DNA of 64,000 bases, from the NCBI GenBank assembly GCA_017935185.1, contig JAGBIC010000006.1, positions 1 through 64,000 on the forward strand, written 5' to 3'. The stretch is from Alistipes sp. Its GTDB lineage: Bacteria; Bacteroidota; Bacteroidia; Bacteroidales; Rikenellaceae. A program made the translations under genes and the position numbers. Under the pieces are notes generated by a model that was not told the origin of the DNA, did no database searches, and saw only the letters and a program-made list of their open reading frames with translations. This document shows positions 275 to 13,703 of the stretch, in pieces (the stretch's first letter is position 1; each line of letters starts with the position of its first letter).

Positions 275-487
275 TAAAATAATCAATGTAAATTATGGGG
301 TGTAAATCACATATGTTTAGTTGTGAGATCGGACGTTATCTGATGTCCGATATAGTTTTATGCACCCCCCCCCTATTATATAAGCTCTTATAAATCAGCT
401 ATTTACATTTTGAGCACCTCGCATTCTCTAACGTGCGAGGCGAATTGTCGTGTCTATTAGTTATCAACTTTAATAAATCAAACTATT

Positions 488-610
488 ATGGAGAACAAAT
501 TAAATTATGTAGCACCCGAGGTTGAGGTACTGGAGGTGCAGGTGGAGGCAGGTTTTGCACTATCAGGAGGAGATTATCCCAAATGGCCGGGTGATGAAAT
601 ACCTCTTTAA
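488..610 (+). CDS. Small conserved peptide, unit 1 (40 aa), function unknown
   Basis: A 40-residue ORF, too short for ordinary gene callers. It is accepted because near-copies occur at 9328-9441 and 47298-47408, each just before a fimbrillin-like lipoprotein. The shared part is M-x-K, then YVAPEVEVLEV, VE, GFA and S; the tail after that Ser (GGDYPKWPGDEIPL) is different in each copy. There is no signal peptide, membrane segment or Cys. The hydrophobic/acidic alternation in PEVEVLEV could form a beta strand. It ends 36 bp before the lipoprotein start, so co-transcription is likely. Conserved front and variable tail recall secreted or modified peptide precursors, but no modifying enzyme is nearby. 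I do not recognise a named family. Confidence 0.8.
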   Translation: MENKLNYVAPEVEVLEVQVEAGFALSGGDYPKWPGDEIPL

Positions 611-646
611 TCAACTGAATGTCTAACGATAAAAATTAAACGAAAG

Positions 647-1501
647 ATGAAAAAGATTTTAATGGCTGTCGTGGCATTGGCAGTTATGGGTTTTGTGGGT
701 TGTCAGAAGGATGATAATGTCGTTGACAACAAGATAAAAGTAAACTTTGCAGTTGCCGATAAGGCTGGTTTTGATAATGGCTCTCGTGCTGTGAAGGCTG
801 GTTGGGAAGCTGGTGACCAGATTTTGGTAGTATTCAAGGGTCAAGATGGTCTGCTTGATATTGTAAATGGCGTGAATACTTTGACACTTGAGTATAACGG
901 AACTGCCTGGGTGTCAGATACTGAAAGTATGCCCGAAAGTGGTCTTAAGAGTGGCTGTGGATATTTTGCTATTCATCATCCTGGCGAGGTTACATTGGGC
1001 TCATACAATGACCATATGGGTGGTACCTATCTGGATGGATATAAGGGTGGCGAGCAATTGATTTATGGTGGAACATATACCCTTGACGGTACTACCGTAG
1101 AGTTGGGTACAATTGTTTTGGAACGAAATAGTCCAAACGATATCCAGGTGTCGGTTAAAGATTTGACTGGCGAGAATTGGAAGATGAGTATTTTTGCTGA
1201 TAAAACCGGTAGTGATGAGGGTATTAACATTACTCATGAGGAAGATGGAAATCTCTTTGTGTTAGACACTGGTTTGGGTTCATATGCCAATTATGTAGAT
1301 GCTACAGGTGTGGAGTATGGTGGTGATGTTTCATTCTATTTTTCTGTGATAAATGTGGAGGTTTCACAACTCGTATTCGTATTGAGTAATGGCACTGATA
1401 CCTACTACTACACAAAGACAGGTGTTACTTCGGATACATTGCAGGGCGGTTATGCATATCTGTTGCCTGCTATTACCGACCCTGCTTGGGAAACAGAATA
1501 A
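647..1501 (+). CDS. Fimbrillin-like surface lipoprotein, unit 1
   Basis: This 284-residue protein starts with a lipoprotein signal peptide; the lipobox GFVGC puts the lipidated Cys at residue 19. The next residues, QKDDN, closely resemble the Bacteroidota lipoprotein export signal (Cys, then K and two acidic residues), so display on the cell surface is likely. A segment with SRAV followed by AGWEAGDQILVVF matches the N-terminal signature of fimbrillin/Mfa-like proteins (Arg, then W-E-x-G-D). The remainder is rich in beta-strand-forming Gly, Thr and Tyr. No anchor, usher or minor-subunit genes lie nearby, so it need not be a fimbrial subunit. It follows the small peptide gene and is followed by a strong terminator. 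The ligand is unknown. Confidence 0.75.
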   Translation: MKKILMAVVALAVMGFVGCQKDDNVVDNKIKVNFAVADKAGFDNGSRAVKAGWEAGDQILVVFKGQDGLLDIVNGVNTLTLEYNGTAWVSDTESMPESGLKSGCGYFAIHHPGEVTLGSYNDHMGGTYLDGYKGGEQLIYGGTYTLDGTTVELGTIVLERNSPNDIQVSVKDLTGENWKMSIFADKTGSDEGINITHEEDGNLFVLDTGLGSYANYVDATGVEYGGDVSFYFSVINVEVSQLVFVLSNGTDTYYYTKTGVTSDTLQGGYAYLLPAITDPAWETE

Positions 1502-9033: not shown

Positions 9034-9241
9034 TATAGTTGTATAAGGGGTAATAACTCCGTTCAATTCAAAAAGATGTTACGCCATAAGGAAAATATCG
9101 GTTTTGTTGTCGGCTCTGTCGCAACAGTCGCACGACGTGAGTATTCGTCGGTTGTGCGCGATGAGTATGGCGTAATATTGCCCCCCCCCTATATGGCTTA
9201 ATTATCAGATAATCAGTAAATTATACGAAAATGACTTAACG

Positions 9242-11081: not shown

Positions 11082-13703
11082 TTACTCCAATTTGTGTATT
11101 ACTCCCTTAATCTGCTCGCCTACCGAGGTGTTATAACCTTGTGAGAAGTAGACTATGCGGCCGAATGTGTCGCATATTGCAATTACGGGTAACGTCTTTG
11201 ATGTCGAGTTGCAGCCTTCGCACAACATCTGCTTTACCTTGCCGTTCGCATCCACTCCATATGAAACTCCCAACGATGTGATAATATTGCGATTTAGCTT
11301 CTTTGCATCTTCTGCCGAAGAGTTGAGAACGATAATCGGGCGACCCCACGCCTTCAGATCGCCACTTATCGAATTAAGTCCTCGCATTGCATGGTTTGTA
11401 GGCTCATCGGTAGTGCCCATGACGGCCAGAAGGAAATAGCCACGTCCGGTGGTCGAGAGCAGTGAACGTTCCGAACTCTCACCTTCGGGCAAATACAGCT
11501 TCTCGGCATCCATCGAGCCGATAACGCCTATATCATCATTTGCGGAGCGTATTATAAGCTCGATTTTGCACTCCTTGTTCTTTTCGATACGGAAACTTAC
11601 ATTGTGTGACAATATCTTGCCGCTGGCCATTCGATTGCCCGATGTGAGCATGTAGAAACCCTCGTCAAGTTCAATCTTCTCGGCAAAGAGATTTGCTGTT
11701 GAGTTGCCCATGTCGGCTGAAAGGTTTGTGTCGAAGTTGAGTGTTTGGCAACGTCCGTTCTCAATGCGTGATATGGTGTAATGCGACGAATATGCAGGGT
11801 GTGAAATAGTGGGAACTTTCTTTGCGTCATATGTGATTGTCAATAAGCCTTTGGCTGTTGCCTTTTCCGATACGGCATTACCATAAGTTACCTTTATCCA
11901 CTCATCATCGTGTAGGTATTCGGGGCGCTGATCTTGAGGGTTAAGTCGCGCTGCAATGCCAAATGTGCGGCAGGCAGCAACAAAAAATCTATCTCGGGAA
12001 TTGCTGTCGGCAGCACGTAACCGTAACACTCCGGCAGGGGTGGCTTGCAGATTTATCGGGTTGTCATCATCGCACAACTCAATATTGTCGTTGCACCACG
12101 ATATTATTTGAGCTGCCGATGGATTGCCAGATATGTCATGGCTCAACACATCGCGTATTTGATTGCGGTAGGGTTGCAGGAACTCATGAGCAATGCGTGG
12201 CGAGAGGATGTATTGGCAATATGTTGGAGTGAGTTCTGCCGTAGGTGTTGACTCTAGTGCATCGTTAAGGACTTCCAATGAAGTGTCGTGCAGATCTTTG
12301 CCCGAGATATTATTCAGCAGGGCCAAAGCTCTGGCGCGTTCAGTACCATTTTTTGAATTGATAAAAGCCTTTATATTACGCCAATTACCTCTTGATGCAA
12401 TAAGAATCTTCTGCTCTTGTGGGGTATACTCTGCGCAACGCTCGGCCGTCATAAAGGTCGAAATGTACGACAGGCGAATAGAATCCTCAATTGTAAGACG
12501 GCGTTTGTTCTCGGCAATCTGCTCGTCGGTTAATTTTATGGGAATGTCACCGGTGACGGGAGGCGTAATATCCTCTGCGAATGAGAAACTATCGCCATCC
12601 TTATATCTCAACTCAACGGTGACCTGCTCGCCGGAGAGTTTGCTGAACCCGAATCGTCCTTCGTGTGAGGCCCATACGAGCATGTCGCCTAAGCCCATAT
12701 GTATTGAGGCTTTGCCCTCGGCATTGGTGGCGAGTTGGACAACCGAATTGAATTCGCCATAGTTGAAAATCTTGAACTCAACCGTTGCTCCGGCCACGGG
12801 CTTCTGCTCTGTGTCGACAACGGTAACTGTCGAGTGGCGTGTGGGGGCGTAGTTGTCAATGACATTTATCTCGGTAAAACAATTTGTTCGCTGAATCACA
12901 TCTTCCGGCCCTGAATAGTCGCCTCTCACTCGTGTGTGCATAAGCAATGCGCGTGTGGCAGGCTGGTTAAACCATGCAATATTTAGCTCGGGCTCGGGCT
13001 CGCATGCACCCATGAAGTACCATTTGCCGTCAATCCACACCTCGACCCATGCATGATTGCTGTCGGTATGGGCCCAGCGGGGAGTGTATACCTGTCGGGC
13101 AGGAATACCTACTGCACGCAGGGCAGAAACGGTCAGCGTAGACTCCTCGCCGCAGCGCCCCTCGCCGGTGAGTATGGTGGCCATAGGTGATGAAGTTCTG
13201 GCATCGGATGGGATGTATGTGGCCTTCTCGTGGCACCAATGATTCACCTCAAGTGCAGCATCGTGCAGCGATAGGCCGTCGACACGCATCTTGAGGGTGT
13301 CGTAATAGATCATACGGAAATCATCAAGCCGCTCATTGTTTACTCTTACAGGGAGTACAAAGTGCCGAAAAATATCCTCGGGAACATCATCTCCCCAAGC
13401 CATTTCGTTGCGTGCTTTTAGCGAACTGCGAACGTTTGCGAGGAAATATTCACCCTCATAATCGCCCATGTCGGCAGATGGCATCGAAGCGTATAGAAAT
13501 TCCATGGCCTCGCGCTCCTGAAGTGATAAATCCTTATCGAAGATGGCAAATATATCTCCATGGGTGAACCGAGATTGTCGCTGGAGAACTTTTTCGTGGA
13601 TATCATTGCGGATTTCGGCATCTGTTATAAAGTGCTTTGTGCATGCTGTTGAAGCGATTGCTAAGGCCGCAACAAAAAGTGATTTGAGGAGTGTTGGCTT
13701 CAT
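11082..13703 (-). CDS. Transglutaminase-like domain lipoprotein
   Basis: A large (873 aa) lipoprotein with lipobox ASTAC and lipidated Cys near residue 21. The transglutaminase/protease-like core is seen at about 150-260: GEGRCGEEST with Cys 184, then NHAWVEVWIDGKWY with His 217, both in the expected order for a papain-like catalytic pair. A beta-rich segment follows (about 280-360, starting STVTVVDTEQKPVAG), which looks like a carboxypeptidase-regulatory or Ig-like fold. The rest is a long region without a motif I can name. Such proteins are common in Bacteroidales and probably act on peptides or glycoproteins outside the cytoplasm; the substrate is unknown. It appears to be a single gene. 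Confidence 0.8.
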   Translation of the reverse strand: MKPTLLKSLFVAALAIASTACTKHFITDAEIRNDIHEKVLQRQSRFTHGDIFAIFDKDLSLQEREAMEFLYASMPSADMGDYEGEYFLANVRSSLKARNEMAWGDDVPEDIFRHFVLPVRVNNERLDDFRMIYYDTLKMRVDGLSLHDAALEVNHWCHEKATYIPSDARTSSPMATILTGEGRCGEESTLTVSALRAVGIPARQVYTPRWAHTDSNHAWVEVWIDGKWYFMGACEPEPELNIAWFNQPATRALLMHTRVRGDYSGPEDVIQRTNCFTEINVIDNYAPTRHSTVTVVDTEQKPVAGATVEFKIFNYGEFNSVVQLATNAEGKASIHMGLGDMLVWASHEGRFGFSKLSGEQVTVELRYKDGDSFSFAEDITPPVTGDIPIKLTDEQIAENKRRLTIEDSIRLSYISTFMTAERCAEYTPQEQKILIASRGNWRNIKAFINSKNGTERARALALLNNISGKDLHDTSLEVLNDALESTPTAELTPTYCQYILSPRIAHEFLQPYRNQIRDVLSHDISGNPSAAQIISWCNDNIELCDDDNPINLQATPAGVLRLRAADSNSRDRFFVAACRTFGIAARLNPQDQRPEYLHDDEWIKVTYGNAVSEKATAKGLLTITYDAKKVPTISHPAYSSHYTISRIENGRCQTLNFDTNLSADMGNSTANLFAEKIELDEGFYMLTSGNRMASGKILSHNVSFRIEKNKECKIELIIRSANDDIGVIGSMDAEKLYLPEGESSERSLLSTTGRGYFLLAVMGTTDEPTNHAMRGLNSISGDLKAWGRPIIVLNSSAEDAKKLNRNIITSLGVSYGVDANGKVKQMLCEGCNSTSKTLPVIAICDTFGRIVYFSQGYNTSVGEQIKGVIHKLE

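Follow-up and report, generated by a model that had tools for sequence, protein, structure and literature searches.

The small genes that precede surface lipoprotein genes in the Alistipes sp. contig studied here encode a conserved peptide family. The arrangement as a whole is probably best explained by an LPP-like RiPP system, with a precursor peptide resembling those from which Bacillota make linear polyphosphorylated peptides (LPP), modification machinery supplied in trans and a product that may act with the surface lipoprotein of the adjoining gene. The precursor is conserved and under selection, its gene is linked to lipoprotein genes, and the machinery is present in the same genome, is repeatedly linked to the peptide elsewhere and co-occurs with it. 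A reading of the sequence alone (the sequence-only reading) had named a peptide precursor as one possibility; the leader is indeed of the YxxP kind read by PqqD proteins (RREs), and the genome has a matching PqqD, kinase, protease and exporter. New here are the Bacteroidales hosts, the dispersed precursors with machinery elsewhere and the adhesin-like lipoprotein beside nearly every precursor. The Bacteroidales version ties an LPP-type enzyme set to surface lipoproteins, a possible partner for this recently described class; it also supplies a single enzyme set with many naturally varied precursors in each genome, and its presence in named strains makes the function directly testable.

The window, that is, the whole stretch of 64,000 nucleotides analysed, contains three peptide–lipoprotein pairs, all found where the sequence-only reading had placed them (Table 1). 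The module it described is real, but three copies is too low a count: the genome (1.8 Mb, 49 contigs, 75% complete) has 12 peptide genes, comprising 11 places similar to copy 2 and one on contig 47, and in all 12 cases a same-strand lipoprotein gene comes next. The three window peptides have 13 invariant columns in common, including Y7, P10, E11, V19, E20, G22, F23, A24 and S26; the Y, P-E and V-E-x-G-F-A-x-S positions of the conserved front half are thus invariant, as had been read. Along the leader, acidic residues alternate with aliphatic ones in the manner of a β-strand.

Table 1. Features of the peptide–lipoprotein modules in the window.
Feature	Position	Strand	Basis
C9 tract, starting 123 nt before copy 1	365..373	+	Run search of the window
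Inverted repeat between C tract and copy 1	417..440	+	By eye
Precursor peptide gene, copy 1, 40 aa	488..610	+	ORF, alignment, pN/pS
Copy 1 leader block, Tyr7–Ser26, YVAPEVEVLEVQVEAGFALS	506..565	+	Alignment, pN/pS; role of Ser predicted from LppA Ser3
Copy 1 variable acidic tail, GGDYPKWPGDEIPL, predicted core	566..607	+	pN/pS, tail–partner test
Partner lipoprotein, copy 1, 284 aa, fimbrillin-like	647..1501	+	ORF, partner alignment; weak fold matches
C9 tract, starting 147 nt before copy 2	9181..9189	+	Run search of the window
Precursor peptide gene, copy 2, 37 aa	9328..9441	+	ORF, alignment
Partner lipoprotein, copy 2, 280 aa	9466..10308	+	ORF, partner alignment
Partner lipoprotein, copy 3, 448 aa	45918..47264	-	ORF, partner alignment
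Precursor peptide gene, copy 3, 36 aa	47298..47408	-	ORF, alignment

Conservation extends well beyond the window copies: a peptide profile matches 54 of 61 genus genomes, with a median of seven matches per positive genome and a maximum of 21. Across the 20-codon stretch that runs from Tyr to Ser, in-frame pN/pS is 0.21, far from neutral, versus 1.10 and 2.27 in the other frames (720 non-independent pairs at 70–99% identity). Since the scan pattern itself fixes positions 7–16, the calculation was repeated outside the pattern and on the genome's own paralogues, and both gave 0.31 (the latter from all 55 pairs among 11 paralogues). The peptide frame is under purifying selection. The tails evolve faster (pN/pS 0.72, 17 close pairs). 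Those of 88 peptides are 9–25 aa long; 86 are net negative and none is positive, Cys is found in none, and 50 have Trp within the last six residues. The conserved Ser belongs to a pattern, itself demanding Ser or Thr there, which 88 of 90 peptides fit; as it also asks for Y, P and G, the constancy of these residues and of Ser/Thr among the 88 partly reflects the pattern. The two others seem to fall outside it solely through a start placed too late.

The peptide genes are linked to lipoprotein genes in other genomes as well, and none of the three results that the sequence-only reading had named as grounds for refutation was obtained. A scan of a species-genome collection with the peptide pattern, on peptide similarity alone, yielded at least 79 loci (the best 80 were kept), labelled Alistipes, Rikenellaceae, Bacteroides, Bacteroidaceae, Bacteroidales, Bacteroidia, Mediterranea and Phocaeicola, together with one MAG labelled Lachnospira; the named strains are Phocaeicola faecalis (L164) and Mediterranea massiliensis (L139). 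The start of a lipobox-bearing ORF lies within 200 nt in 69 of the 79 listed loci versus 39 of 325 control gene ends (Fisher 1.9e-38), where the controls come from the same loci and were scored by rule, and the peptide loci were also inspected by eye (L133 was spurious by eye and L141 missed by rule, so the total stays at 69). The spacing is usually 10 to 70 nt. In L135 and L138 the peptide is followed by the modification operon instead of a lipoprotein gene, and the peptides of L121 and L134, which also have no lipoprotein next to them, are of the same type; neither lipoprotein nor operon adjoins the peptide in six of the 79 (L103, L133, L151, L155, L162 and L166). Across 71 modules (short partners, L133 and L141 left out), tail similarity tracks the identity of the partner lipoprotein (partial r 0.50, 0 of 2000 permutations), whereas the leader is nearly constant whatever the partner (r 0.17). 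Tracking of this kind could arise through linkage alone; it is also possible that the processed tail pairs with its own partner lipoprotein.

The three window lipoproteins have the Cys at residue 19 and the W-E-x-G-D motif ascribed to them. The QKDD-type export signal holds for copy 1 (CQKDD), but copies 2 and 3 have CSKDD and CTNKE. Among 67 chosen and aligned partners (eight from the window genome and 59 others), the lipobox Cys is invariant and an N-terminal R and W are conserved in at least 90%; a W..GD.I pattern is found in 46 of 68. The description of the partners as fimbrillin-like surface lipoproteins is borne out by this signature, by Pfam and NCBIfam matches for a minority and, weakly, by the fold of copy 1, whose predicted structure (pLDDT 60) gave weak fimbrillin matches. 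With the fimbrillin-like proteins of Bacteroidales (Mfa_like, FimA/Mfa1) the partners have in common the lipobox, the TR...W..GD region and this weak fold match. In contrast to those proteins, at most eight of the 67 have a Mfa_like_1 or Mfa_like_2 domain (Pfam), LRR_5 is found in ten, and many carry LRR, DUF4465, FISUMP or Ig-like parts; intact partners range from 127 to 1563 aa. The described fim or mfa clusters are not known to include a precursor gene in front. In the open-licence PMC literature, nothing was found connecting the peptide or the enzyme set with fimbrillins.

Neither Pfam nor NCBIfam recognises any of the 61 aligned peptides above cut-off, with no clear Pfam match, and routine annotation is therefore likely to overlook them. 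The NCBIfam model of paeninodin lasso precursors matched eight of the 61 weakly (best E 0.0073); this match suggested a leader read by an RRE and led to a search for PqqD (PF05402) in the 61 genus genomes. In the window genome, contig 41 carries PqqD, contig 47 an HprK-like kinase and a signal peptidase I (SpI)-like protease, and contig 32 the exporter, which is 58% identical over 566 residues to that of another genome (G014). The sole NTP_transf_5 match there (G000:C29:46739-47491) contains stop codons. The PqqD profile matches the lasso RRE structures 6jx3 and 5v1u; a single PqqD matched nothing in the PDB, and the LppB structure is absent from the profile matches too. Nine PqqD proteins have five invariant residues, including N35, Y63 and D73. 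The predicted structure of one kinase (L108) shows an HprK/PEPCK fold (pLDDT 73), and a structure search with the kinase profile gave no matches. Among the NCBIfam models, archaeal signal peptidase I, TIGR02228, fits the protease best (E 4.7e-7 and 1.8e-8, below the curated cut-off), and a structure search gave a weak match to signal peptidase IB. The nucleotidyltransferase is PF14907 (NTP_transf_5), and the exporter matches the MsbA model (E 3e-77). A bacteriocin exporter of the C39 peptidase-containing type was considered and rejected; the exporter of L237 has no peptidase domain according to Pfam.

Several genomes carry peptide and machinery side by side. In L243 the order, on one strand, is peptide–HprK–SpI–PqqD–NTase–ABC; L138 shows this order too, as does L135 with a short kinase match. 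L240 has peptide–lipoprotein–ABC–SpI–PqqD–HprK, L236 has HprK–SpI–PqqD–NTase–peptide–lipoprotein, and L325 has NTase–HprK–SpI–divergent peptide–lipoprotein, then PqqD and ABC; L336 has PqqD–divergent peptide–HprK–SpI–ABC, at low scores. Machinery was found within the fetched flanks (up to 5 kb) in 11 of the 79 listed peptide loci as a raw count, L152 having the exporter only. The usual operon of the genus is ABC–HprK–SpI, with ABC in 14 of 20 loci and SpI beside the kinase in 15 of 20. The genus PqqD gene is in another operon, before a Cys/His-rich protein in 13 of 20 loci, a TonB receptor in 18 of 20 and a heavy-metal-associated (HMA) protein in 15 of 20; its main role could therefore lie elsewhere. 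At L185:8186-11699 and further genus loci, this setting resembles metal uptake.

Peptide and machinery also largely co-occur. PqqD is present in 54 of the 61 genus genomes (53 have both PqqD and peptide, six have neither), the kinase in 51 and NTP_transf_5 in 48, and the same six genomes have no match to peptide, PqqD, kinase or NTP_transf_5. One genome (G036, 71% complete) has the peptide without PqqD, kinase or transferase; in another (G045), PqqD, the transferase and two kinase matches come without a peptide match. Downstream of the EF-Ts gene, two of the six negative genomes (L308 and L309) show no kinase or protease match. Fisher tests across the genus gave 8.7e-7, 2.5e-5 and 1.9e-4; these values were rejected as independent evidence, since a tree of S2 and EF-Ts for 50 of the 61 genomes reduces the co-loss to about three changes, and an independent-pairs test was not significant.

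The order-wide survey comprised 393 genomes, the window genome and others at least 85% complete, with weak peptide matches (E up to 0.01) counted. It found the peptide in 14, PqqD in 241 and the kinase in 35. PqqD is present in 13 of the 14 peptide-positive genomes, and being common across the order discriminates little. The kinase is present in 12 of the 14 versus 23 of the 379 others (2.8e-12, kinship ignored). Its profile had been built from G326, G256, G375, G291 and G423, where the kinase adjoins PqqD; without these five genomes the ratio is 7 of 9 versus 23 of 379 (2.6e-7, kinship again ignored). With peptide matches restricted to E up to 1e-4, seven of nine genomes have the kinase. The double positives belong to seven families. 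The kinase is missing from two peptide-positive genomes, G095 and G213, and PqqD from G213 as well; 23 genomes have the kinase and no peptide match at E 0.01, and some of these have divergent YxxP peptides beside the operon.

The closest known system is LPP (lppA-K-B-S-D-N), as described by Popov et al. (2026; PMC13381572). There, LppA is the precursor, the HprK kinase LppK phosphorylates Ser3 of a core starting AQSNWK, and the SipW-like protease LppS (triad S29, H68, D93) cleaves after T-1 with the help of the RRE LppB, whose N33, Y60 and D70 hold the leader; LppD is the exporter and LppN the NTP transferase. According to its authors, LPP and paeninodins are restricted to Bacillota and their roles are unknown; their text nowhere contains Bacteroid, fimbri or lipoprotein. 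Shared with LPP are the types of a discrete RRE, an HprK-like kinase, an archaeal-type signal peptidase I, an NTP transferase and an MsbA-like exporter, as well as a YxxPx[V] leader, a conserved Ser, a variable C-terminus and no lasso B2 found; the motif in its wider form, YxxPx[L/V/I/F/A], is likewise present in the Bacteroidales peptides. The PqqD residues N35, Y63 and D73 correspond to those of LppB by position, not by alignment (spacings 28 and 10 versus 27 and 10). The protease Ser and His are 37–40 residues apart in six proteins, four of which have 39 (LppS 39); acids follow the His at +15, +22 and +28, none of them at the place of the third catalytic residue of LppS, at +25.

The likeness to LPP is incomplete. 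The Bacteroidales block, YxxPEVEVLEVxVE[QK]GFAxS, departs after YxxPxV from the full LPP consensus, YxxPxVLxHQxIxFETxxS, and is one residue longer from Tyr to Ser. Unlike in LPP as described, the hosts are Bacteroidales, the tails after the Ser are short (9–25 aa), the machinery is mostly in trans, a lipoprotein gene follows, the precursors are dispersed with up to 21 matches per genome, and phosphorylation here is predicted only. As the middle of the leader, the tail, the hosts, the dispersal and the lipoprotein partners differ, the system is called LPP-like and not a member of LPP.

Paeninodin-type lasso peptides (PadeA/PadeK, pseudomycoidin PsmN; PMC9266682) likewise have a [Y/W]xxP leader, a PqqD-type B1 protein, an HprK-like kinase, a nucleotidyltransferase and an exporter. 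Unlike in those clusters, B2 and cyclase were not found in the data searched: B2 (PF13471) was above cut-off in none of the 61 genus genomes (five weak matches), and neither B2 nor an asparagine synthetase-like cyclase matched in 25 loci, mostly machinery loci, with a cyclase profile made from one cluster. A lasso peptide was therefore rejected, with no B2 above cut-off in those genomes and no cyclase in the scanned loci. A lasso cluster does occur elsewhere in Bacteroidales, at L248 (G355:C1:281000-295000), with B2, an asparagine-synthetase-like cyclase, PqqD, HprK-like kinase, nucleotidyltransferase and ABC transporter. PMC10352776 deals with RiPP mining in Bacteroidales; PMC12710340 and PMC7470986 make no mention of kinase, Bacteroid, fimbri, nucleotidyltransferase or lipoprotein.

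By analogy with the LPP system, which has been studied by experiment, the free-standing PqqD would bind the YxxPxV leader as an added β-strand, and the HprK-like kinase would phosphorylate the conserved Ser of G-F-A-x-S; in copy 1, Ser26 is the predicted phospho-acceptor, the proposed counterpart of LppA Ser3. In some species the nucleotidyltransferase would act next. The archaeal-type signal-peptidase-like Ser/His protease would then cut off the leader near G-F-A-x-S. The Ala of this motif may be the first residue of the core and the conserved Ser its third, as in FET|AQS; the other predicted cut is after A-x-S, with the Ser then staying in the leader. A signal peptidase might favour a cut after A-x-S. 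The MsbA-like ABC transporter would export the short acidic core. Outside the inner membrane the core might work with the lipoprotein of the adjoining gene, most likely as a dedicated ligand or adduct; we regard this last step, taken alone, as plausible, at somewhat less than even chances. The same machinery would serve in trans the 12 precursor–lipoprotein modules of the window genome.

Other roles were weighed against a modified peptide acting with its lipoprotein. Lipoprotein immunity proteins exist for some bacteriocins, and the RiPP products might be antagonistic, the adjoining lipoprotein being a cognate immunity protein or a decoy; tails that track their partners and evolve fast, and the many copies per genome, would suit such a role. 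The large, adhesin-like partners, however, argue against it, as do the acidic, Cys-free tails, which the common membrane-active bacteriocins do not resemble, and antagonism appears improbable.

Two further proposals leave the peptide unmodified. It might be a translated leader whose sole task is to regulate the downstream lipoprotein gene by attenuation or coupling, with the PqqD and kinase link a matter of ancestry or coincidence. Its position directly upstream, usually at 10 to 70 nt, and the inverted repeats before several modules fit that idea, but the conserved amino-acid front half and free C-terminus are the reverse of the arrangement in known arrest peptides. As the peptide gene also comes first in the modification operon of L243, L135 and L138 and co-occurs with the kinase order-wide, a regulatory leader seems quite improbable. 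The cytoplasmic chaperone or plug proposed in the sequence-only reading could draw on the strand-like leader and the fimbrillin-like partners. The strand-like part, however, is nearly independent of the partner and is explained by RRE binding; moreover, the peptide has no signal peptide and so could meet its partner only before export. In the form proposed, with a peptide lacking an export signal of its own, this idea finds no support, and we consider it very improbable.

Processing of the peptide, perhaps with joint action of product and lipoprotein, remains the preferred reading, and the DNA upstream of the modules suggests that their expression may be switchable. The two C9 tracts are the sole runs of at least seven C or G within the window. 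The genome has 22 tracts of at least eight C (C8–10, nearly all C9); nine lie within 300 nt upstream of seven of the 12 modules (binomial 2.4e-19, uniform placement assumed), and the other 13 are elsewhere, some inside genes. Outside the genus upstream tracts are rare, a run of at least seven C or G within 300 nt occurring in nine of the 79 listed loci. Inverted repeats of differing sequence occupy a similar place between C tract and peptide start in L002, L005, L006, L009, L010, L089 and L115, and Rfam gave no matches in the window. Tracts and repeats together suggest a switchable promoter in this group, and slipped-strand phase variation at the C tracts is possible. It is conceivable, if unlikely, that each cell makes about ten acidic peptides that are phosphorylated and perhaps also nucleotidylated or glycosylated, each matching one fimbrillin-like adhesin and presented with it at the cell surface, as a combinatorial, phase-variable coat in which the C8–10 tracts turn single modules on and off; such a coat would depend on a modification system whose descriptions to date come from Bacillota alone.

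Two further observations concern neighbouring subjects. The window also encodes, at 11082-13703 on the minus strand, an 873-aa lipoprotein with a weak transglutaminase-like stretch (E 0.0056, below cut-off), with no link to the modules seen. In L189, L204 and L235, sugar transferases adjoin a second type of PqqD and its accompanying nucleotidyltransferase and kinase-like genes, which makes this another peptide-modifying locus near polysaccharide genes.
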